In this document: positions 3,488 to 21,000 of the stretch, piece after piece
Numbering within the stretch: position 1 is the first letter of the stretch
How the letters are laid out: the number at the start of each line of letters is the position of its first letter
IMG/VR virus record: IMGVR_UViG_3300037421_000036
Coordinates: 1 to 21,000 of that record
Direction: 5' to 3' (one strand)
Length of the DNA: 21,000 bases
Source of the DNA: a virus
Translations under genes and position numbers: made by a program
Notes under the pieces: generated by a model
The model's database searches: none
Told to the model about the DNA's origin: nothing
What the model saw: only the letters and a program-made list of their open reading frames with translations

Positions 3488-5349
3488 CAGAGTGCCCAGC
3501 AGTGGTAATTGATCCAGTAGGCTGTCGAGGCCGTCAAGGGAGTCGGCACAGCAATCGTGTTCGCTCCAGTGGCGGCAGGCTGATTCGTCCATGTAAACAA
3601 ATCTGAGGCTGTTCCTGGTGTGGTGTCTTTCATCGTTGCGATTCCAGCCCATGCCGCACCGCCACCATCATTAGCGCTGAAGATGCAAGATGAGGAATGC
3701 ACGGCAAATGCCGTGCCGGCAGAAAATGTTAGAGTGATTGTTCCTGTTCCCGCTGGCGATCCCGTCCCGGTAGTCGCGATAATCGTACCGGCAGAATCAC
3801 TCGAGCCAGTACGGAATGAACAAGAAGGAGAGGTTCCGCCACCAGACGTGAATGTACAGGTGGGCGCAAGAGAGCCAGTGCGAGTCCGAGATACCGCAAC
3901 CGTTCCTGCTGTACTACTCAAGGCTCCAGTGCCGATATCGAGAATGCCAGCACCGCCCCGCGTCATGGAAATGTCTCGGGCAGATGCCGCGCCATTTGAG
4001 AGTCCGAAGCCATTCCCGCCGAGGACGGTAGTTCCAAAGGCGAAATCATTCGCCTGCTCATCAAAAGCATTCACTGTTGTGATGACAGTGTCGGAACCGC
4101 CGTTGTAAAATCCGTCTTTCGTGTTGGAAAGGTATAACGCCAAACTACCTGTCGTGCCTTGCTTGGTCGCAATTTGTCCGGTCGTAGTTAGATTGGTCGC
4201 AAGTATCGTGCCTGTCCCAAAGTTGCTGTTCCCATTGGTGACATTGATTGCCAACACATTTGGATTATGGGTCGCGTCGAATCCGAGAGAGTCAATTTGG
4301 AGCGCGGTATAGTTTGTGAATACTCCGCCAAGCGAGCTGGGGGTGCCTACATGGAAACCCATCGCATTTGAGACTGTTCCACCGCCAGCATTGTAGAGGA
4401 TTGCCCAGTATCCGTTTAAGTTCGTGATGTTGCCGCTGCCAGGGCTCAAAGTGCCAGCATTTGAACTTGAACCACTCAAGTTAGTGACTGTGCCATTCCC
4501 TAGGTTGTAAGCTTCACCAGAATATCCGATAAGATCGGCGACTGTTCCTGTCCCGTTGTGATCGGCTTCTGCGTGAACTGCTGTTTGTTCATTAGAATAG
4601 TTGTGAGTATTTGCCGCCGTGGTGGCTACGGAAGCGTTTAGGTTAAACATTTCAATTGCTGAGTCACTCGCTGGTTGCCCAAGAAACGTCCAGAAGTTAT
4701 AGGGCATCGTGAAAGGACCGCGCGTAGTGCAACCAGTACAGACGTCAGTGTTGGTATTTTCAGAATAGATCAGAGGAGTTGACTGGAGTGTACCGTAATA
4801 TGCCAAATTGGTCGTGGGACCAACAGTTATACTCCTGGCCGGAAGTTGCACTGCTGATCCAGTGGAATTATTCCAAAGAAAGTTGGCATCTCCACCGAAT
4901 GCCCCCGAGTTATTAAACTGCATAGATGATGTTGGGTTAGCGGGCGTTGTAGCACCGCCAGTGCCCCCGCTCTTACTTGAAGAGAGCTTCACGACGTTCA
5001 GTTTTACATTGGCCGTTCCGCTCGCTACCGTGTTGCCGCATAAGTAGAACTGCGTCGAGCCACTAACCGCAGCCGTAAAGACTCCATTGGCAGTGATCGT
5101 GTTCTGAGCGGTTGAGGACGTGGACGGCGTAACCTGGACATTGGCTGCAGCATCATTGCCGATCGCCACTTGCGGCTGTAATGTGCCTGACCAAGTTCCA
5201 GTTACCGAAATACCAACGACGCCCTGAGTGTCCGTGCTGACTGAGACACACGCCGTTCCGCCTCCGGTGGATGGAATACTGCCAGAAACGGACTGCGCGA
5301 GCATCGGGGCACCAAGCAAAAGCAGAATGCTGAGTATTTTACTTGTCAT
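3487..5349 (-). CDS. Fibre-like protein with Sec signal peptide and solenoid repeats
   Basis: 620 residues from the ATG at 5349. The frame is open to 5391, but the 5349 start has an AGGTG Shine-Dalgarno four bases upstream and begins a textbook signal peptide (MTSKILSILLLLGAPMLAQ). An N-terminal beta-rich domain (about residues 20-125) carries two Cys. The phrase SSMQFNNSGAFGG that follows is one I associate with phage tail-fibre proteins. Between about 4330 and 4560 there are four imperfect copies of a 20-23 residue Gly-rich unit of the form GTVxNLxGxxxxAxNxGxG, suggesting a beta-solenoid shaft. The C-terminus ends in a Trp/Cys-containing strand, WINYHCWAL. Probably a tail fibre or adhesin; exact role not known. 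Coupled to the downstream spike gene by a TGATG overlap. Confidence 0.65.
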   Translation of the reverse strand: MTSKILSILLLLGAPMLAQSVSGSIPSTGGGTACVSVSTDTQGVVGISVTGTWSGTLQPQVAIGNDAAANVQVTPSTSSTAQNTITANGVFTAAVSGSTQFYLCGNTVASGTANVKLNVVKLSSSKSGGTGGATTPANPTSSMQFNNSGAFGGDANFLWNNSTGSAVQLPARSITVGPTTNLAYYGTLQSTPLIYSENTNTDVCTGCTTRGPFTMPYNFWTFLGQPASDSAIEMFNLNASVATTAANTHNYSNEQTAVHAEADHNGTGTVADLIGYSGEAYNLGNGTVTNLSGSSSNAGTLSPGSGNITNLNGYWAILYNAGGGTVSNAMGFHVGTPSSLGGVFTNYTALQIDSLGFDATHNPNVLAINVTNGNSNFGTGTILATNLTTTGQIATKQGTTGSLALYLSNTKDGFYNGGSDTVITTVNAFDEQANDFAFGTTVLGGNGFGLSNGAASARDISMTRGGAGILDIGTGALSSTAGTVAVSRTRTGSLAPTCTFTSGGGTSPSCSFRTGSSDSAGTIIATTGTGSPAGTGTITLTFSAGTAFAVHSSSCIFSANDGGGAAWAGIATMKDTTPGTASDLFTWTNQPAATGANTIAVPTPLTASTAYWINYHCWAL

Positions 5350-5379: not shown

Positions 5380-5880
5380 ATGCATGAACAATGGCGTCCA
5401 GTAACAATCCCTGAATTTCTCGGCCTGTATGAAGTCTCCAACTTAGGCAATATTCGCAGTAAGCGCTGCGTCAATCTGCGCGGAGATTATGACCGGTCTG
5501 GCTATCATCGAATCGTCCTGCAAAACAACGGATACACTAAGCGCTTCCTTGTTCATCGGCTTGTAGCCGAAGCATTTCTTGGTCCGCGTCCTGACGGGAT
5601 GACGGTTAATCACAAGAATGGCAAGAAAGCCGACAACCGCGAATATAACCTTGAGTACATGACGCAATCGGAAAATGAGCTGCATTCATTCCGAGAACTT
5701 GGCCGCACTACCCCTGCTGGCAGTAAGCATTGGAATCACAAATTGACCGAGGATGATGTGCGCACGATTCGGGCTCAGCGGGAAGCGGGCCGTTCCTTGA
5801 ACGAACTTAGCCAGATACATAACGTGAATGTTGCCAGCATCTCATTGATTTGCAACCGAAGAACGTGGCGACATATCTAG
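5380..5880 (+). CDS. Free-standing HNH homing-type endonuclease (NUMOD4 + HNH + C-terminal HTH)
   Basis: 166 residues. Residues 2-46 have the NUMOD4 look (EQWRPVTIPEFLGLYEVSNL then GNIRS), a DNA-binding module common in intron-encoded and free-standing homing endonucleases. Residues 55-100 form an HNH_3-type nuclease: VHRLVAEAFLG, then TVNHKNGKKADNREYNLEYM, with His59, His78, Asn86 and Asn90 as likely active-site or structural residues. Residues 120-166 (KLTEDDVRTIRAQREAGRSL onward) look like a helix-turn-helix that reads the target. The gene lies on the opposite strand to all nearby virion genes. It fills the space between them exactly: its TAG stop abuts the stop of the 5881 gene, and its start is 30 bases from the fibre start. 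Looks intact. Function as a homing enzyme is inferred from the family. Confidence 0.88.
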   Translation: MHEQWRPVTIPEFLGLYEVSNLGNIRSKRCVNLRGDYDRSGYHRIVLQNNGYTKRFLVHRLVAEAFLGPRPDGMTVNHKNGKKADNREYNLEYMTQSENELHSFRELGRTTPAGSKHWNHKLTEDDVRTIRAQREAGRSLNELSQIHNVNVASISLICNRRTWRHI

Positions 5881-9429: not shown

Positions 9430-10458
9430 TCACGCTGGCCGATATTTGCGGGACATTTCTGCTTCAAACGCGGCAAAATTCCCGTTGCGCGCTGCCGATA
9501 CCGCTGCATCTTCGGACGCAGCTCCCCGGCCACCAACTTCGGCGGGAGGTTTCGGGGCACGCGGTTTCGGTTCGGGAGCCGTTTTCTCGGAGTCAGGGGC
9601 TTTGGTCTCGACCTTCGCCACTTTGGCTGCCTTATCAAGCTCCTGTTGAATCAGGTGCTCGGTTAAGACAATCTTTCGAATAGCCAATGCGGGGTTGGTC
9701 TTGGCGGTCTGGATCAAATCAGCCATTGCTGCCGGTTCGCCCAACGTGTAAAGCAAATGCTCGAATACCGGAGAGTCGTTTACTAAGGCTTTCACGGCAT
9801 GCGGAATCTGCTGATCTTCCGTTAGGGCTTTGACGATAGGTTGCTGGCGTTGATCGAAGTCGGGATAGAGCTTTTTCGCAGCCTCGATTCGCGTCTTGAG
9901 TTCCTTCTGGGCAGCTTCCGTTTCACGTCGCCGGTTGTCTGCGGCAATTTCTTGCCGAGCTTCCCATCTTGCTTCGTGTTTGGCCGCTGCTCGTACGAAG
10001 TCCTCATAAGTCGCTTTCGGATTGCTGGCGAAATACTCTTTTTCATCGAGGGGCTTGTATCCATCCGGCGCAGGTTGCGATTCCTGCTTAGTTTCACGCT
10101 TTTCGGAGGTAGCCCTGCGATATTCATCCCTTTCTGCCCGAAGTGCCTTCACTTCGTCCAGAATCTCTTTAAACCGCTTTTCCGTGTCCTCTGATGTCTT
10201 GAGATGTGGCTTCCGTTCGGTGCCTGTGGCCGACTCAGGCGCTGTATCGGCAGATGTCTTGTCTTTCCGCGGGGCCGAGTCCGCTACGGCGTCTTTCTTG
10301 GCAGGGGCCGAATCCTGCGTTTTCGGCGGAAACTTGGGTATTGCGCCAGTACGTTGCCACTCGGAAAGTTGCTCATCGGTCCAAGTATTAGTTGGCTGTG
10401 GCTCCGCTGGTTGCGTGGTGGCCGAATCCACTACGGTCGCGGCAGTTTCGTTAATCAT
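9430..10458 (-). CDS. Scaffolding protein (P22 gp8-like by position and composition)
   Basis: 342 residues; ATG overlaps the portal stop as ATGA. Very hydrophilic, rich in Lys, Glu, Ala and Pro, with long predicted helices (KRFKEILDEVKALRAERDE; NRRRETEAAQKELKTRIEAA) and disordered Pro/Ala ends. The C-terminus is short and basic (FAAFEAEMSRKYRPA), as expected for the coat-binding helix-turn-helix of P22-type scaffolds. Gene order portal-scaffold-coat is the P22 order. Scaffold sequences diverge quickly, so the call rests on place, length (P22 gp8 is 303) and composition. No protease motif was seen, so it is probably released intact. Confidence 0.78.
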   Translation of the reverse strand: MINETAATVVDSATTQPAEPQPTNTWTDEQLSEWQRTGAIPKFPPKTQDSAPAKKDAVADSAPRKDKTSADTAPESATGTERKPHLKTSEDTEKRFKEILDEVKALRAERDEYRRATSEKRETKQESQPAPDGYKPLDEKEYFASNPKATYEDFVRAAAKHEARWEARQEIAADNRRRETEAAQKELKTRIEAAKKLYPDFDQRQQPIVKALTEDQQIPHAVKALVNDSPVFEHLLYTLGEPAAMADLIQTAKTNPALAIRKIVLTEHLIQQELDKAAKVAKVETKAPDSEKTAPEPKPRAPKPPAEVGGRGAASEDAAVSAARNGNFAAFEAEMSRKYRPA

Positions 10459-12575
10459 TCCGTCTCCTTCAAACCTGATTGGGCAGTTTGCTGCGCCATC
10501 GTCTGCTGATGGGCTTGGTCTGAAACCTGGGTTAACGCAGCATTAGCCGCTTGCTTGTCAGCAATAGCGTGCTCATGGGATTGCTGATCTTTCTGCTTCG
10601 CTATTTCGTGCGCGGCATGATGATTCTCGATCTGTGTCTCTTGGAAGAGTTGCTGACGTTCTGAGGCATCCTGTGCTTTGGTCTGCACGTTTGCGATGTA
10701 GGCCTTAAGATCGGCATTCAATTGAGCGATCTTGGAGTCGATTGCGCCCTCGAACTGCTTCATCTGCATCTTGTATTCGTTGTCGATGACCTTACCGGCC
10801 CGCTCCAGGTGAAGCTTCTGAATCTCGCCCTGCATTTCCTGTGAGGCTTGCTGCGCCATCTGTAATTGCTGTTGCATTTGCTGCAACTGTCCAGCTTGAT
10901 CTTGGTCAGGCGATAGGACTTCGGCGATTTCGTCTCCAATCGCGCCAATATTCTTAAGCTTGGTAGCCAAGGATAGGAGCTTCCCAACCGCGCCTTGTGG
11001 CAGGACTTGAGCAAGGTCTGCAGCCGTCTTGAAGATCGTATCGGCAAACTCGGCCTCTTCTTCGCGCTGAGAGGCGTGATTCGGGCCTTCTGAGATCGTG
11101 ACGGTAAACTTGCCGCGGTGAGCGAAGAAGTAGTTAGCCTCAGGGACGGCTTCGGATGATTCAGGCGGTACGGAGCCCTTCGCCATGACCTGTAGAGGCA
11201 TATCTTCGCCCTTCGGATCCTTGCCGAGCAGATTCTTAGGCAGGGAGTCGGTTTCCGCCAGTTTTGTAATCAGTTCGTTCATCTGCACGCCGGTATTGCT
11301 TAATGCGCGCCCGAAGTTATCCAGAAAATGGAAGTTGCCGAGCATTCCGGCATTTTCAATCCGCTCAAGAGCGATACCCGACTTGTCATTGACCTTCTGG
11401 GCATCCGTGGGCAGCGGCGTGCCAGCCACAGCCGCTTGATGCGATCGCCGCCAACGCTCATAAGCCATTTCATAGGGCTGAGGGTTGGGCATGAACTGCG
11501 GACGGGTTGGAAGCGGTGGCACACCCCACTCAGCGCGCCAATCGGTTGGCACCACCGCTTCCAATCGTGCAACCGGTGTTCTGTGCGCAATGTCCCAAGT
11601 CTTTTCTGCATGGGCGAACGTGCCCTTAAAGCCAACCCACGACGCTCTGGGCATCTGTCCGAACTCTTCCGCCTCTTGGGAAGCGATGTAGGCCATCATC
11701 TGCTGCGCAGGTCTGCCGGTGCGGATCATCGAAAAGAACAGACGTTTCGACTGCCCGCCTTCCTTGACGTAAAGCTCCTTGCCAAACACGCCGATAATCG
11801 GAATCCACGAGCCTAACCACTCATGCGTTTCAAGGATTTCGACGCCATTTGTAATCTCTTGCTTCACGTTGTAAGTCTTTTCGCCATCATTCTCATCAAT
11901 CTCTTCGCGCGTCCAGTACTCGGCGACGGTGACATTTCCGCCATTCAGGAAGTCCGGCGCGACATTGCGATCTTCTGCAGTGAAGCTCTTTTTCTCAGCT
12001 TTTGGGTAGCGGCGGGCGAACGTTGTTTCCCGCATTGAGTCGATGACGAAGCAGATGCTTTGGTCTGAGAAGTCCGCTTCCTTGGCGTCGGGATCAAAGT
12101 AAACAGTCGCCCAATTAGGAATTCGCTTAAGGCGGGGCTCCTGCTCTCCCTTAGAGCCTGTGATAACCGTGGTAAGCCGCCATGCGCCGAATGCGCATTG
12201 CACGGCTGATTCGTAACCAGTCGTATAAATGGATTGGGCCTTCGATGCGTCCTCGATTCCCCGTATGTAAGCTTGCCGGTGTTCAGCGTCTTGGTCTGTG
12301 GCTTCTTCACTTTTAGGCGAGAGCTTGATGGATCGTTTGTTCTGCCGCAGGTTGTTATTTGCCTGGTTAACGTATTGGCTTGTTTCGTCCGGCCAAATGC
12401 ACGGACGCCCTGAGCGGTCGTCAGTGAAGTCTTTGGGCGGGATGGCGGCGATGCAGTCAACGTCTTTAGCGGCTTCTTCGTAGTTTCTGTGCCAGTACGC
12501 ACGGCAGTAGGCATAATCCTCGCGGATTCGCTTAAGGCGCTCTTCCAGAGCGGATTCTTTGTCTGTGCGGGGCAA
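10455..12575 (-). CDS. Portal protein, P22 gp1-like
   Basis: 706 residues against 725 in P22 gp1. Starts at TTG (12575) just after the stop of the upstream small gene, with no good Shine-Dalgarno, so coupled translation is likely. The N-terminal half has the P22-portal pattern (YEEAAKDVDCIAAIPPKDF; PDETSQYVNQANNN; IEDASKAQSIYTTGYESAV; TVYFDPDAKEADFSDQ). The C-terminal 150 residues are Gln-rich helix (QLQQMQQQLQMAQQASQEMQ and beyond), corresponding to the long helical barrel of P22 portals. The dodecamer forms the unique vertex through which terminase pumps DNA. Overlaps scaffold by ATGA. Confidence 0.88.
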   Translation of the reverse strand: MPRTDKESALEERLKRIREDYAYCRAYWHRNYEEAAKDVDCIAAIPPKDFTDDRSGRPCIWPDETSQYVNQANNNLRQNKRSIKLSPKSEEATDQDAEHRQAYIRGIEDASKAQSIYTTGYESAVQCAFGAWRLTTVITGSKGEQEPRLKRIPNWATVYFDPDAKEADFSDQSICFVIDSMRETTFARRYPKAEKKSFTAEDRNVAPDFLNGGNVTVAEYWTREEIDENDGEKTYNVKQEITNGVEILETHEWLGSWIPIIGVFGKELYVKEGGQSKRLFFSMIRTGRPAQQMMAYIASQEAEEFGQMPRASWVGFKGTFAHAEKTWDIAHRTPVARLEAVVPTDWRAEWGVPPLPTRPQFMPNPQPYEMAYERWRRSHQAAVAGTPLPTDAQKVNDKSGIALERIENAGMLGNFHFLDNFGRALSNTGVQMNELITKLAETDSLPKNLLGKDPKGEDMPLQVMAKGSVPPESSEAVPEANYFFAHRGKFTVTISEGPNHASQREEEAEFADTIFKTAADLAQVLPQGAVGKLLSLATKLKNIGAIGDEIAEVLSPDQDQAGQLQQMQQQLQMAQQASQEMQGEIQKLHLERAGKVIDNEYKMQMKQFEGAIDSKIAQLNADLKAYIANVQTKAQDASERQQLFQETQIENHHAAHEIAKQKDQQSHEHAIADKQAANAALTQVSDQAHQQTMAQQTAQSGLKETE

Positions 12576-13804: not shown

Positions 13805-14008
13805 TTAGCCGCCAAGAATGCGATTCGCCTTAGCCCTGATCTTTGCGGCGCTGGCCGGTGACAGCTTGCCCTTGTGCACCATCTGGGTTGCGCGGGCCTT
13901 CGCATTGGAAGCGTGCGATCGGTCAGGCATTGGGTATTTGTGCGAGCCCGGTAACCCGAACTCGCTCGACGGGATACGCTTACGTGCGGCTGCTGTCAGT
14001 TTTGCCAT
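13805..14008 (-). CDS. Small conserved phage protein, DUF6582-like
   Basis: 67 residues; its ATG overlaps the terminase C-part stop by one base (TAATG). The pattern LTAAARKRIPSSEFGLPGSH then YPMPDRSHASNAKARATQMV and a C-terminal SPASAAKIRAKANRILGG is one I recognise from small phage and prophage proteins (DUF6582-type), often located near packaging or capsid genes. Basic and probably partly disordered; function unknown. Confidence 0.72.
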   Translation of the reverse strand: MAKLTAAARKRIPSSEFGLPGSHKYPMPDRSHASNAKARATQMVHKGKLSPASAAKIRAKANRILGG

Positions 14009-14745
14009 TAAGACCAGACTCCGATTCGCGGGGCGCGCGCGTCGTTTAGTGGCGCCTCAAAGGGCTTCAATTGCATCTGCGGGACTCGGCTTTCGAGGTA
14101 CCTAGTTGAGTCCATTAAGTGATCGTTCTCTTTCACCACTTTGCCGTGGTCGTCGCGCCGGTACAGCCTGAATTCCTCCAGCCACTTCGTCATATTGCGA
14201 AAGACCTTCAGCCTGCCCGTACTCAGGCGGTTCCAAACCGAGTACAGCCCGGATTCAACTCCATTGTCAGCAAGACTGAGCTTGAGCCCGAGTTGGCTGT
14301 AATCGTAAAGCAGTTGACGGCCATCCGCTTGAGCACGTCCTCGGGAAGCAGGATCAATAAAGCCCGGTATCCATTCACCGGGCGCTCGGACACCATGAAC
14401 GTGTACGCTGGGCTCGGCTTGGCTACGCTTATATTCATGCGTTAGATATAAAACGTCGTTCTCTCGATCGTGGGCACCCCAGACTGCAGCCGTGAAGTTC
14501 CATCCCACATCCATTCCATAGCCACGAGGCCAATGTACTGGCACTTCGAAGGGTGCGACGAGGAGATCGGACTCTGGCACAGGGTAGATTGCACCGCTCC
14601 CCAATTGAGGAATACCCTTAGATCGGGCATCCCTTTGATACGGGGGAATTGAATTCCAAAGCTCTTTCTTGGATTCTTCACTGAGATGGGGGGCGTCGTC
14701 CCATGTGAGCATCACGACATATTTGGTGTCGCTAACTGCTGGCAT
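14008..14745 (-). CDS. Large terminase, C-terminal (nuclease) part of a split gene
   Basis: 245 residues. The sequence continues the P22-type large terminase where the 15094-15810 gene leaves off: linker SDTKYVVMLTWDDAPHLSEE, then RDARSKGIPQLGSGAIYPVP. The RNaseH-like nuclease follows with Asp79 (YGMDVGWN), Asp131 (FIDPASRGR) and Asp208/Asp212 (NDHLMDSTRYL) as the likely metal ligands. This half cuts the concatemer during headful packaging. The ATG at 14745 lies inside the 3' end of the HNH gene (14-base overlap), with only a weak GAAG upstream, so translation may depend on reinitiation. Both halves keep their key residues and sum to 483 residues, near the normal length, so a working two-chain terminase is plausible. 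Confidence 0.88.
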   Translation of the reverse strand: MPAVSDTKYVVMLTWDDAPHLSEESKKELWNSIPPYQRDARSKGIPQLGSGAIYPVPESDLLVAPFEVPVHWPRGYGMDVGWNFTAAVWGAHDRENDVLYLTHEYKRSQAEPSVHVHGVRAPGEWIPGFIDPASRGRAQADGRQLLYDYSQLGLKLSLADNGVESGLYSVWNRLSTGRLKVFRNMTKWLEEFRLYRRDDHGKVVKENDHLMDSTRYLESRVPQMQLKPFEAPLNDARAPRIGVWS

Positions 14746-15094
14746 GCGTCTTCAGATACTGGATGGCCTGCTCAAGGAATTCCTTGCGCTCGTAGAACAT
14801 GCCGAGGCCACGATTACAAAAGCCGCACAGCAAACCTCGAAAGCTCCCGGTTGTATGATTGTGGTCAATGTGCAACATCTCTTGGAACTTGCTGCAGATC
14901 GCGCATTTTCCGCCTTGGCGCTTGTAATAGTCCAGGTACTGCTGGAGCGTGATCCCGTAGCGCGCGCGTAGAGTCGCTGACTTCCTTTTGGCTGTTTTGT
15001 TGTGTCGCCGCTGCGCGGCCTTAACCTTGTCAGGATTGGCTGCTTTCCAACGTTTAAGCCAGTTCGCGGCATCTGCCTTGGAAGCGTAGGGCAT
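14732..15094 (-). CDS. Endonuclease VII-type HNH homing endonuclease inserted in the large terminase gene
   Basis: 120 residues. A Lys/Arg-rich N-terminal helix is followed by RARYGITLQQYLDYYKRQGG and the nuclease core: Cys64-x2-Cys67, the IDHNHTTG motif with Asp77, His78 and His80, then GLLCGFCNRGLG with Cys90, Cys93 and Asn94. This is the recombination endonuclease VII (T4 gp49-like) His-Me finger family, often found as free-standing genes in phages. The start MPYAS is typical of these free-standing genes, so the gene looks complete. It sits exactly between the two halves of the large terminase, overlapping the first by one base (TAATG) and the second by 14 bases. It fills the insertion, leaving no room for a group I intron core. 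Confidence 0.88.
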   Translation of the reverse strand: MPYASKADAANWLKRWKAANPDKVKAAQRRHNKTAKRKSATLRARYGITLQQYLDYYKRQGGKCAICSKFQEMLHIDHNHTTGSFRGLLCGFCNRGLGMFYERKEFLEQAIQYLKTHASS

Positions 15095-15810
15095 TATTCA
15101 GGCAACCTCCCGCCCTTCAGGAAAGCCAACACTACCGCGCTCATCCCCTGCAATGGCGTGAAGGTCAACATTATCATCCCGTTGTTGGTCATGGTTCGCA
15201 TCAGGCATTCCGTGTAGATGTCTAATGGCGGCTCCTCATCCAGCCAAATAACATCCTGCTCGGTGCCTTGAAACGATTCGCGGCGTTGGTCATAAGACTT
15301 GAGAACCAACGTGGACGTGCCACCGGAGGCGTGCTTAATGAAAACTGAATCCAGTTTGTCCGCGATACCACTGGATCGGACAGTCCGAAGGATCGAGTCT
15401 CCATTGATGAGACCCGTACCCCAATTCCCAACGGGGCCAAGTAACTTCTTTTGAATGATGTCTCTGACGGTGATACCTGTATCACCTGCAGCCCATGCGC
15501 TGATGGGTCTCGTAAAAGTTCGACCCTTCCACCATGCGGGATACTGACCACTAAGGTGGAGTGCAAGTTCATACCCGCCGACGCCTTCAGTCTTGCCGAC
15601 ACGATTGGCGGCCAGGATGAGCCTTTCACGGTACTTCGGCCCTGCTGCGAAGAATTCACAGTGCTTTGGATAGAGTTCACGTCGTAGCGGCCCTTCATCG
15701 GGGTAATACGTCGTGATCTTTCGCCGCTCCATTCGCCTTTTCTGCTCTTGCTGTAGCGATTCCAGCCTCTGCAGCAGCGTCAGCCGCTCTCTTAAGTCCA
15801 AGTCGGGCAT
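15094..15810 (-). CDS. Large terminase, N-terminal (ATPase) part of a split gene
   Basis: 238 residues, P22 gp2-like. Walker A variant AANRVGKT at residues 67-74, Walker B DVIWLDEE at 186-193 and motif III LTFTP at 215-219 are all present, so the packaging motor ATPase is complete. The chain stops at GGRLPE (TAA at 15094-15096), where homologues continue into the nuclease domain. The start at 15810 overlaps the small terminase candidate by 116 bases and has no clear Shine-Dalgarno. The ATG at 15732 (MERRKITTYYPDEG), with AAAAGG just upstream, is an alternative that would lose 26 residues of N-terminal helix. Confidence 0.88.
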   Translation of the reverse strand: MPDLDLRERLTLLQRLESLQQEQKRRMERRKITTYYPDEGPLRRELYPKHCEFFAAGPKYRERLILAANRVGKTEGVGGYELALHLSGQYPAWWKGRTFTRPISAWAAGDTGITVRDIIQKKLLGPVGNWGTGLINGDSILRTVRSSGIADKLDSVFIKHASGGTSTLVLKSYDQRRESFQGTEQDVIWLDEEPPLDIYTECLMRTMTNNGMIMLTFTPLQGMSAVVLAFLKGGRLPE

Positions 15811-16165
15811 AGAGTTTGTCTATTTCGGCCTGTATGTCATTGTCCGGCACTTCGTTGAAATCACTGCCGGTATCGCGGGTTTCTTTCAGTTTTCCAAAGG
15901 CCCGCTCAGCCACTACCTGGAAGCCAAACGCACTGCCCTTCATCAGCAACGTCGCATATGCCTTGTAGATCAACTCGGGATTCTTCTCAAATATCGCCCT
16001 TGCAATGACTTGGGACATATCCTGTTTTGGCCTGCCGGCGGGATTACCGCTTTGACCTGGCTTCCAGGGAGCGACTAAGTTCTTCAGCGAGTTCGGGCTG
16101 CGCTTCCTCGGTGCAGCGCTCGCTGAATCCACCGACTGCGCCTCAATTGATTCGCGCGTTTTCAT
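15695..16165 (-). CDS. Small terminase candidate (DUF5681-type N-terminus)
   Basis: 156 residues. The segment WKPGQSGNPAGRPKQDMSQV is the DUF5681 signature, a DNA-associated motif found in many phage proteins encoded just before large terminase. It is followed by helices (KNPELIYKAYATLLMKGSAF; LKETRDTGSDFNEVPDNDI) and an Ala/Lys-rich C-terminus that overlaps the large terminase frame. Position immediately upstream of the ATPase gene supports a DNA-recognition role at the pac site. Sequence alone does not prove it; another DNA-binding accessory protein is possible. Overlaps the upstream gene by 23 bases. Confidence 0.68.
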   Translation of the reverse strand: MKTRESIEAQSVDSASAAPRKRSPNSLKNLVAPWKPGQSGNPAGRPKQDMSQVIARAIFEKNPELIYKAYATLLMKGSAFGFQVVAERAFGKLKETRDTGSDFNEVPDNDIQAEIDKLYARLGLKRAADAAAEAGIATARAEKANGAAKDHDVLPR

Positions 16166-16328: not shown

Positions 16329-16516
16329 TGCGGCTCGCTGTAATCTGGATCAAAGCAGCCAACCGTGACACTGTCTGAGTCGGAATCGACCAAGTACCAG
16401 GATTCACCGTTCGGACAACTGCCGGGATAGAGCTTTGTACGCCGTTCGCCGGAAGTCGGATGTGCGGTCAAGCTCATCAGGAACACAATTATGAGCGTTG
16501 CAATGGCTATTCTCAT
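16325..16516 (-). CDS. Small secreted or membrane-anchored protein
   Basis: 63 residues. N-terminal hydrophobic segment IAIATLIIVFLMSLTAHP followed by TSGE looks like a signal peptide or single anchor. The short mature part carries two Cys (SCPNG and VGCFDP), which could form a disulfide in the periplasm. ATGA overlaps at both ends place it firmly in the leftward unit. No family recognised; function unknown. Confidence 0.55.
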   Translation of the reverse strand: MRIAIATLIIVFLMSLTAHPTSGERRTKLYPGSCPNGESWYLVDSDSDSVTVGCFDPDYSEPQ

Positions 16517-16746
16517 AGCATCCCCAACTCTTTCGCCCGCAGGTAAACTAAACGCACGCTTGGAATGTATAAGTTGCTTTGAATGCCATATTTTGCGGCA
16601 GCTTTTGAAAGCGCTTGCTTCACTGTGTTTTCGCTGATTCGCATTCTCTGAGCTAAATGTGCAATCGTATTCCGCGGTTGGCGCTCTCTTGAGAACAGCA
16701 GGTCTACAGCCTGCTTCTGCCGCGGACTAAGCCTTTCGTAGCTCAC
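16513..16746 (-). CDS. LuxR/GerE-type helix-turn-helix protein
   Basis: 77 residues starting with GTG at 16746. The segment LSPRQKQAVDLLFSRERQPR followed by TIAHLAQRMRISENTVKQAL and KAAAKYGIQS is a LuxR/GerE-type DNA-binding domain: scaffold helix, HTH with recognition helix SENTVKQAL, and final helix. There is no receiver or ligand-binding domain, so it is a stand-alone regulator, perhaps controlling late genes. GTGA at the start overlaps the stop of the methyltransferase only if that gene ends in the -1 frame. Confidence 0.72.
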   Translation of the reverse strand: MSYERLSPRQKQAVDLLFSRERQPRNTIAHLAQRMRISENTVKQALSKAAAKYGIQSNLYIPSVRLVYLRAKELGML

Positions 16747-20265: not shown

Positions 20266-21000
20266 GTGAAAAATCCGTGGTTCCCGCTGTACGTGGCTGA
20301 TTATTTGGCAAAAACTGGTCATTTAACTCAAGGCCAGCATGGAGCTTACTTGCTTCTGCTACTGCACTATTACTCGACTCGGAAGCCGATTCCGGCAGAC
20401 AGGCTAAGTTTGCAGCGCATTTGCAGGAGTTTTGCAGGCTACGAAGACACTGCAGTCGATGCGGTGTTGAAGTACTTCTTCGAACTGCGAAGTGATGGAT
20501 GGCACAACGCTCGAATTGACGAAGAGCTTGAAAAGGCTGAATTGATATCGGGCGCGCGGCGCGCAGCCGCAGCTAAGAAATGGGGGAAAGATGCCACTAC
20601 TTCGCGGTCGGTGACGCCGCGCGGACGCCGCTTGGCGAATGCCCGAATGATTGGCACTCATATCGAAGAAGAATGGGTAATGCTTTTAGAAATATGTGGT
20701 TACAAATGCCTTAAGTGTAGCGCTGAGGATGTCGTAAAGGATCACATAGTGCCACTGTACCAGGGTGGTGCAGATTCAATCGACAATCTTCAACCGCTCT
20801 GTCGCTCTTGTAATTCGTCCAAGGGACCGGATAGGACAGATTACCGCCCCGAGAACTGGAGAGAATTACTGGAAAGCGCCTGCAAAAGCACTGCAAATGG
20901 CCTGCTATCACAATCACAGTCAGATATGGAATCTCTCCCAATAAAAGCAATTACACACAGTAAGAAGCAATTCGTAAAACCTTCTTTAGAGGAAGTAAGT
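20266..21000 (+). CDS. DUF1376 replication-type protein with an HNH endonuclease domain embedded in frame, partial
   Basis: Starts at GTG 20266 and stays open for 245 codons to the window edge. Residues 1-106 are a clear DUF1376 domain (KNPWFPLYVADYLAKTGHLT; HGAYLLLLLHYYSTRKPIPA; GWHNARIDEELEKAE; ARRAAAAKKWG), the N-terminal region of phage replication-initiation-like proteins. From about residue 112 comes an HNH nuclease: RGRRLANARMIGTHIEEEW, Cys148-x2-Cys151, KDHIVPLYQGGADSIDNLQP with Asp159, His160 and Asn174, Cys179-x2-Cys182, Asn183 and Lys186. The frame then returns to a Ser/Gln linker and KPSLEEVS, which resembles the start of the usual DUF1376 C-terminal region. No stop and no intein splicing motifs are seen, so a single fused protein is predicted. 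Confidence 0.85.
   Translation, partial: MKNPWFPLYVADYLAKTGHLTQGQHGAYLLLLLHYYSTRKPIPADRLSLQRICRSFAGYEDTAVDAVLKYFFELRSDGWHNARIDEELEKAELISGARRAAAAKKWGKDATTSRSVTPRGRRLANARMIGTHIEEEWVMLLEICGYKCLKCSAEDVVKDHIVPLYQGGADSIDNLQPLCRSCNSSKGPDRTDYRPENWRELLESACKSTANGLLSQSQSDMESLPIKAITHSKKQFVKPSLEEVS

Follow-up and report, generated by a model that had tools for sequence, protein, structure and literature searches.

An endonuclease VII-type HNH gene lies between the two parts of the large terminase gene of a bacterial virus, at a linker that is also split in many relatives

Introduction

How does a gene for an essential packaging motor come to be encoded in two pieces, and can the pieces still make a motor? 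In tailed phages and herpesviruses alike, the gene for the large terminase (TerL) is a hallmark. Models of the packaging motor treat TerL as one chain, and phage phylogeny and annotation use it as a single marker. In the window, by which we mean the whole 21,000-nucleotide stretch of DNA analyzed here, a virus of bacteria carries the DNA-packaging motor gene terL as two separate genes. A literature search that covered few subscription journals yielded only spliced or unrelated cases and no paper describing a two-chain terminase large subunit, and earlier notice of one is possible.

Results

Organization of the terminase locus

The minus strand of the window encodes, in order, a DUF5681 protein, the N part of TerL, an HNH gene, the C part of TerL, small genes, and a P22-type portal protein.

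15695..16165, minus strand: DUF5681 protein, 156 aa, immediately 5' of the TerL N part (PF18932, 2.9e-6)
15094..15810, minus strand: TerL N part, 238 aa, with the ATPase core of Walker A, Walker B and motif III
14732..15094, minus strand: endonuclease VII-type HNH gene, 120 aa (PF02945, Endonuclease_7, 1.4e-22)
14008..14745, minus strand: TerL C part, 245 aa, with the last ATPase strand and lid (aa 1-45) and the RNase H-like nuclease (about aa 46-227)
10455..12575, minus strand: P22-type portal protein, downstream of the TerL C part (PF16510, 3.3e-79)

A preliminary description of this DNA had claimed a P22-type TerL split by an HNH gene with overlaps of one and 14 bases, and the coordinates of the three open reading frames bear this out. 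The N part ends on a TAA stop codon whose last base also opens the HNH gene (TAATG), and the first 14 bases of the C part overlap the end of the HNH gene. The N and C frames are 351 nt apart, with stops between them. The ATPase and nuclease of TerL usually share one polypeptide, a feature that is not strictly defining, and in the window they do not. The DUF5681 gene occupies the usual place of the small terminase gene, and from that position it may fill the terS role.

Other genes of the window include a NUMOD4-HNH_3 homing-type endonuclease gene at 5380-5880 on the plus strand (HNH_3 1e-13, NUMOD4 1e-8), which lies amid tail-region genes and runs counter to the structural genes. At 20266-21000, also on the plus strand, a DUF1376 protein (8e-24) with an HNH domain on its C-terminal side (2e-12) runs off the end of the record and is the third HNH-bearing gene in the 21 kb. 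A 77-aa protein at 16513-16746 on the minus strand has a weak sigma-70 region 4/HTH match.

Completeness of the two parts

The N part matches Terminase_6N (PF03237) at 2e-12 in Pfam, and the C part has a weak match to the end of the same family (profile 158-212). Both halves fall in the terminase large subunit family of PHROGs, the N part through phrog_31467 (1.7e-62) and also phrog_2, the C part through phrog_5653 and phrog_2. A profile of the C part matches the P22 TerL nuclease structure 4DKW at 3e-38 (hmmsearch), starting from C residue 46, and the fold match to 4DKW reaches a Z of 25.5; the C part also matches D6E TerL (5OE8) from aa 12, at 5OE8 residue 201. A profile of the N part found no meaningful match among PDB sequences, although a fold search did place the N part, and NCBIfam gave no match for the TerL N, HNH or TerL C proteins. 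Together the two parts carry what marks a TerL: the Walker A motif, Walker B motif with catalytic Glu, and motif III of an ATPase core, and the acidic residues of an RNase H-like nuclease.

15589..15612, minus strand: Walker A, AANRVGKT, N residues 67-74; most of the motif invariant in A1
15232..15246, minus strand: Walker B and catalytic Glu, WLDEE, N residues 189-193; invariant in A1
15151..15165, minus strand: motif III or coupling motif, TFTPL, N residues 216-220; T216, T218, P219 and L220 invariant in A1
14110..14511, minus strand: nuclease acidic residues D79, D131 and D208/D212 (C numbering); invariant in A2 and A6

The motor and nuclease residues had been described as intact, and indeed all of the motifs are present and the catalytic residues are invariant. 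The preliminary description had also proposed alignment with an unsplit homologue and a search for the unsplit allele in relatives. Unsplit relatives exist, and the closest unsplit TerL among those retrieved, the sister L003, is about 82% identical to the joined halves. Apart from a 2-residue gap where the halves meet, the alignment extends over the entire protein, the N part aligning with L003 as far as aa 253, and no key residue is missing from either half. Since no residue is lost in comparison with L003, the insert has landed in a loop that varies freely in sequence and length in unsplit relatives.

Position of the cut

In a structural model of unsplit L003 (mean pLDDT 83.6) the junction falls at residue 253/254, in a coil between a helix that extends to 249 and a strand at 259-264. 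Structures of the P74-26 TerL ATPase domain align to residues 45-308 of the model, and the solved nuclease domains of G20c, SPP1 and P74-26 begin at about 303; the P22 4DKW row spans further on the model than these other nuclease domains. The cut is therefore set back some 50 residues into the ATPase domain. This rules out the preliminary claim that the insert sits exactly between the domains, and the accompanying notion of ATPase and nuclease on separate chains is not supported either, because the C chain also bears the last ATPase strand and the lid helices.

14611..14745, minus strand: C-chain segment of the ATPase domain, comprising the end strand YVVMLTW and the lid helices, from the P74-26 alignment to L003

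With the ATPase domain shared between them in this way, the two halves are fragments that depend on each other, not self-contained modules. When the C chain is predicted alone, residues 1-14 have pLDDT values under 50 and form no strand, while the equivalent residues of the unsplit model do form one. Such a predicted disordered start would fit a strand that needs its partner chain.

The HNH gene and the content of the linker

The HNH protein matches the structures of T4 endonuclease VII and Hpy99I and belongs with phrog_2914, 2633 and 307.

14813..14866, minus strand: HNH catalytic core, D77-H78-N79-H80 ... C90-x2-C93-N94, from the translation aligned with Hpy99I and T4 endonuclease VII

A zinc pair, C64-x2-C67, is found in the translation just upstream of this core. 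Judged by its zinc cysteines and D-H...N residues, the protein is a complete endonuclease VII-type nuclease. As expected of a homing gene, its insertion site is empty in close relatives, both in the unsplit sister L003 and in neighbours, and the window copy may be mobile by homing. A search of viral contigs with the window HNH protein found no close relative outside the window phage, returning itself and one protein of 50% identity; the phage records hold over 1800 distant endonuclease VII matches, widely scattered.

Among split loci the spacer is of the Endo VII type, of another HNH family, of the GIY-YIG type, other DNA, or nothing at all. The other HNH family (best PHROG 1035) is present in the terL linker of L015, L312, L328, L347 and L348; the L312 and L328 proteins are 46% and 29% identical, respectively, to that of L015. 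These five related HNH proteins in one linker lend indirect support to homing. L347 encodes a 341-aa HNH protein antisense between the terL halves (3764-4789), with apparent N-terminal repeats of a zinc-finger motif. Twelve further relatives of the L015-type family were detected in viral contigs, and the closest two are again in the terL linker. In L150 the linker contains a GIY-YIG type nuclease (T5orf172/MUG113). The differing nucleases in one linker indicate that the linker is a landing place for several nuclease families, in agreement with the known fact that homing endonucleases are enriched in the vicinity of terminase genes (PMC10448857). Only 7 split loci have a recognizable nuclease, and most splits thus lack one to which they could be attributed. 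The remaining split loci have small ORFs without assigned function, non-coding gaps, or no spacer. Related small ORFs lie between the terL halves of the Halomonas and Litchfieldella loci (L329:3612-4001 and L332:3741-4001) and end on the start of the C part.

Recurrence of the split among relatives

Relatives, numbered here as L loci, were drawn from IMG/VR contigs, 84,980 species genomes, and phage records. A terL was called split if its halves were in different frames or had stops between them, and splits were counted among sequences holding both halves. The gene is split in 54 of the 234 distinct sequences, a value of 23% that is not a population frequency because sampling was not random and took the nearest matches first. 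Loci from the species genomes are split in 15 cases out of 38. All of the 39 split loci examined in detail are broken at this linker, with no stop within either matched half. At the junction of a split terL, anything from an overlap of the two genes (ATGA, TAATG) to a gap of more than 1 kb occurs. The weaker cases are L248 and L286, without a clear start codon at the expected place, L308, with a single in-frame stop, and L307, which is cut by the contig end. Isolate genomes with a split terL are those of Acetobacter musti, Roseomonas acroporae, Kushneria aurantia, Chromohalobacter canadensis, Halomonas sp. McH1-25 and Litchfieldella xinjiangensis. Among unsplit relatives, L162 (Megaira phage MAnkyphage_25.80) has a long in-frame extra stretch in the linker, the matched halves lying 114 nt apart.

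A tree of 150 representatives, 50 of them split, requires 23 state changes, at least 11 of which are forced by well-supported branches; this tree came from a quick search and calls for caution, and because parsimony cannot separate gain from loss the changes may include re-fusions. In a more careful tree the window and unsplit L003 are sisters (99/94 support) within a mostly unsplit clade. There are three splits in the window's clade, and a single origin for them is rejected (p-AU 0.0033). Several clades are split throughout (e.g., those of L311, L266, L312, L187, L301, L302 and L331), indicating that the split state persists.

The same arrangement as in the window is present in the L002 contig, which is 99.2% identical over 9.7 kb with 80 differences, none of them in the terL region; being nearly identical to the window, it adds little independence. 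The portal gene contains 72 of these 80 differences (window 11089-12575), a pattern that resembles a recombination tract.

Selection on the split genes

L154 and L157 are both split and have different spacers. Between them the N part has a dN/dS of 0.006 and the C part one of 0.014, dS being 0.4-0.6. Other split pairs have values of about 0.02-0.3, the L155/L156 N-part value resting on almost no changes. Ten split records, including the complete circular phage MW202785, hold no second copy of Terminase_6N in a search confined to that family. Purifying selection on both halves, together with the single Terminase_6N core, argues that the split pair is a working terminase. The gene fits the description of a gene in pieces in that both parts are complete and conserved and no splicing element was found. 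The two chains would be expected to co-assemble into an active motor, for which the single Terminase_6N core and the unformed strand at the start of the C chain are indirect support.

Discussion

The pattern across these genomes makes it probable that homing endonucleases repeatedly break terL at this linker and that the two separately translated chains still co-assemble as one large terminase. We present a hypothetical sequence of events. A free-standing homing-type nuclease gene would enter the variable terL loop that follows motif III, at the end of the ATPase core, and would end the N frame with a stop and open the C frame with a start, without loss of any motor residue. The TAATG junction and the C-part start inside the end of the HNH gene mean that one message can yield all three proteins by coupled translation, which would keep the N and C chains in step. 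The chains would then associate through the ATPase sheet and the lid. After loss of the nuclease the two genes may stay apart, remain adjacent, or come to overlap, and many lineages would keep a two-gene terminase.

The main rival differs only in the origin of the split and is compatible with a two-chain motor: terL would already have been in two pieces when the HNH gene moved into the junction, as a passenger and not the cause. Many relatives are split without any insert, through ATGA or TAATG overlaps (L032, L152, L266, L271), which speaks for this order of events, and gene 43 of Aeromonas phages, which 44RR has in two pieces with no nuclease gene, poses the same question (PMC2988022). Nevertheless, the closest relatives of the window (L003, L004, L008, L009, L011, L087) are all unsplit, and we regard a split that preceded the HNH gene as unlikely here. 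It is because these nearest relatives are unsplit that insertion of the HNH gene is the likely cause of the split in the window genome; as the same linker is often split with a different nuclease or with no insert, this cause is likely and not proven.

Could the HNH protein instead be a working part of the packaging machine, the three genes forming one functional set, as with the HNH protein beside the HK97 terminase? P22-type phages package by the headful mechanism and have no need of cos cutting, which counts against such a role. The gene overlaps suggest tight translational coupling, as might be expected of a functional set. HNH proteins adjoining the terminase can aid cos cleavage, as discussed for HK97 in PMC10448857. 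The position between the halves, however, is taken in split relatives by another nuclease, by other DNA, or by nothing, and once by a nuclease gene on the opposite strand (L347), which makes a packaging role very unlikely.

Removal of the insert by RNA or protein splicing, through a group I intron or a split intein, would restore one normal TerL, and there are precedents for spliced terL in ICP1 (PMC10448857), Bastillevirinae (PMC11878797) and IBB_35 (PMC3322345). Among the relatives, an 806-aa TerL ORF (L284:3965-6382) has an intein-like C-terminal part, with an Intein_splicing match of 4e-8 that is just below the curated cut-off. However, the window insert is merely 351 nt long and is wholly HNH coding sequence, with neither a ribozyme core nor the non-coding room of a group I intron; the group I introns of Bastillevirinae have about 350 nt of non-coding sequence besides their ORF (PMC11878797). 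An Rfam intron search at relaxed thresholds found nothing relevant in the window and eight loci, and no intein halves were found, the ends of both TerL parts aligning to the unsplit linker without extra residues. Many split relatives, moreover, have nothing to splice out. Splicing is accordingly even less probable than a packaging role. Least credible is an artefact or decay, by mis-assembly or because the broken terL belongs to a dead phage: the window is a 21-kb linear virus record from a metagenome, but the arrangement is the same in a second contig (L002) that differs at 80 positions elsewhere, neither half has stops or frameshifts, splits recur in six isolate genomes, and selection on the split pair L154/L157 is strongly purifying.

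Returning to breakage by homing endonucleases, a wider picture can be proposed, and we favor it with some reserve. A broad podophage and prophage family would run a stable two-chain motor in which the nuclease chain supplies the last ATPase strand and the lid; the linker would be entered recurrently by several unrelated families of homing endonuclease, and clades would stay split after nuclease loss, the two-chain form being at least neutral and perhaps useful. From how often the gene has been broken, it would seem that homing endonucleases can remodel an essential motor many times over and leave the phage viable. Because this two-chain TerL is a natural one and is cut immediately ahead of the lid, its chains can be mixed, mutated and swapped separately, which opens the coupling of ATP site, lid and nuclease to experiment. 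There is also a practical consequence: annotation pipelines may miss or double-count terL, and phrog_31467, to which the N part belongs, is still labelled as of unknown function.

Comparison with known systems

The parallel that the preliminary description had drawn with nrdA of Aeromonas phage Aeh1 is apt. In both cases an intact HNH-type homing endonuclease gene (mobE in Aeh1) splits an essential phage gene into complete parts, and unsplit relatives exist. The Aeh1 nrdA halves give a fully active enzyme (PMC2988022). The gene and the nuclease are different here: it is the packaging motor that is divided, many lineages share a recurrent break at one loop, and the halves are predicted to assemble. 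Gene 43 of Aeromonas phages 25 and 44RR likewise encodes a phage enzyme, DNA polymerase, as two chains (43A/43B). A nuclease gene lies between the halves in one phage and is absent in 44RR, and the 43A and 43B proteins of phage 25 co-purify and are active (PMC2988022). The split terL, by contrast, is spread over a wide family in which the state has changed at least 11 times and several types of nuclease occur.

In ICP1, Bastillevirinae and Campylobacter phage IBB_35, terL is interrupted by intron or intein elements that accompany homing endonucleases (PMC10448857, PMC11878797, PMC3322345). In those phages splicing, of RNA or of protein, joins the parts again, whereas here no intron or intein is detectable and each part has its own start and stop. 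In fold, motifs and order of parts the window protein resembles the P22/Sf6-type large terminases (P22 4DKW; Sf6 4IDH; D6E 5OE8; P74-26 4ZNK), and it differs in that full-length proteins of that group are one chain and the window has two. A counterpart in a complete phage genome is Podoviridae sp. ct2G2228 (MW202785.1), in which two adjacent CDS, each annotated "large terminase protein", are split at the same loop; its halves are separated by a 133 nt gap with no HNH gene, and the split is not remarked on in the record.
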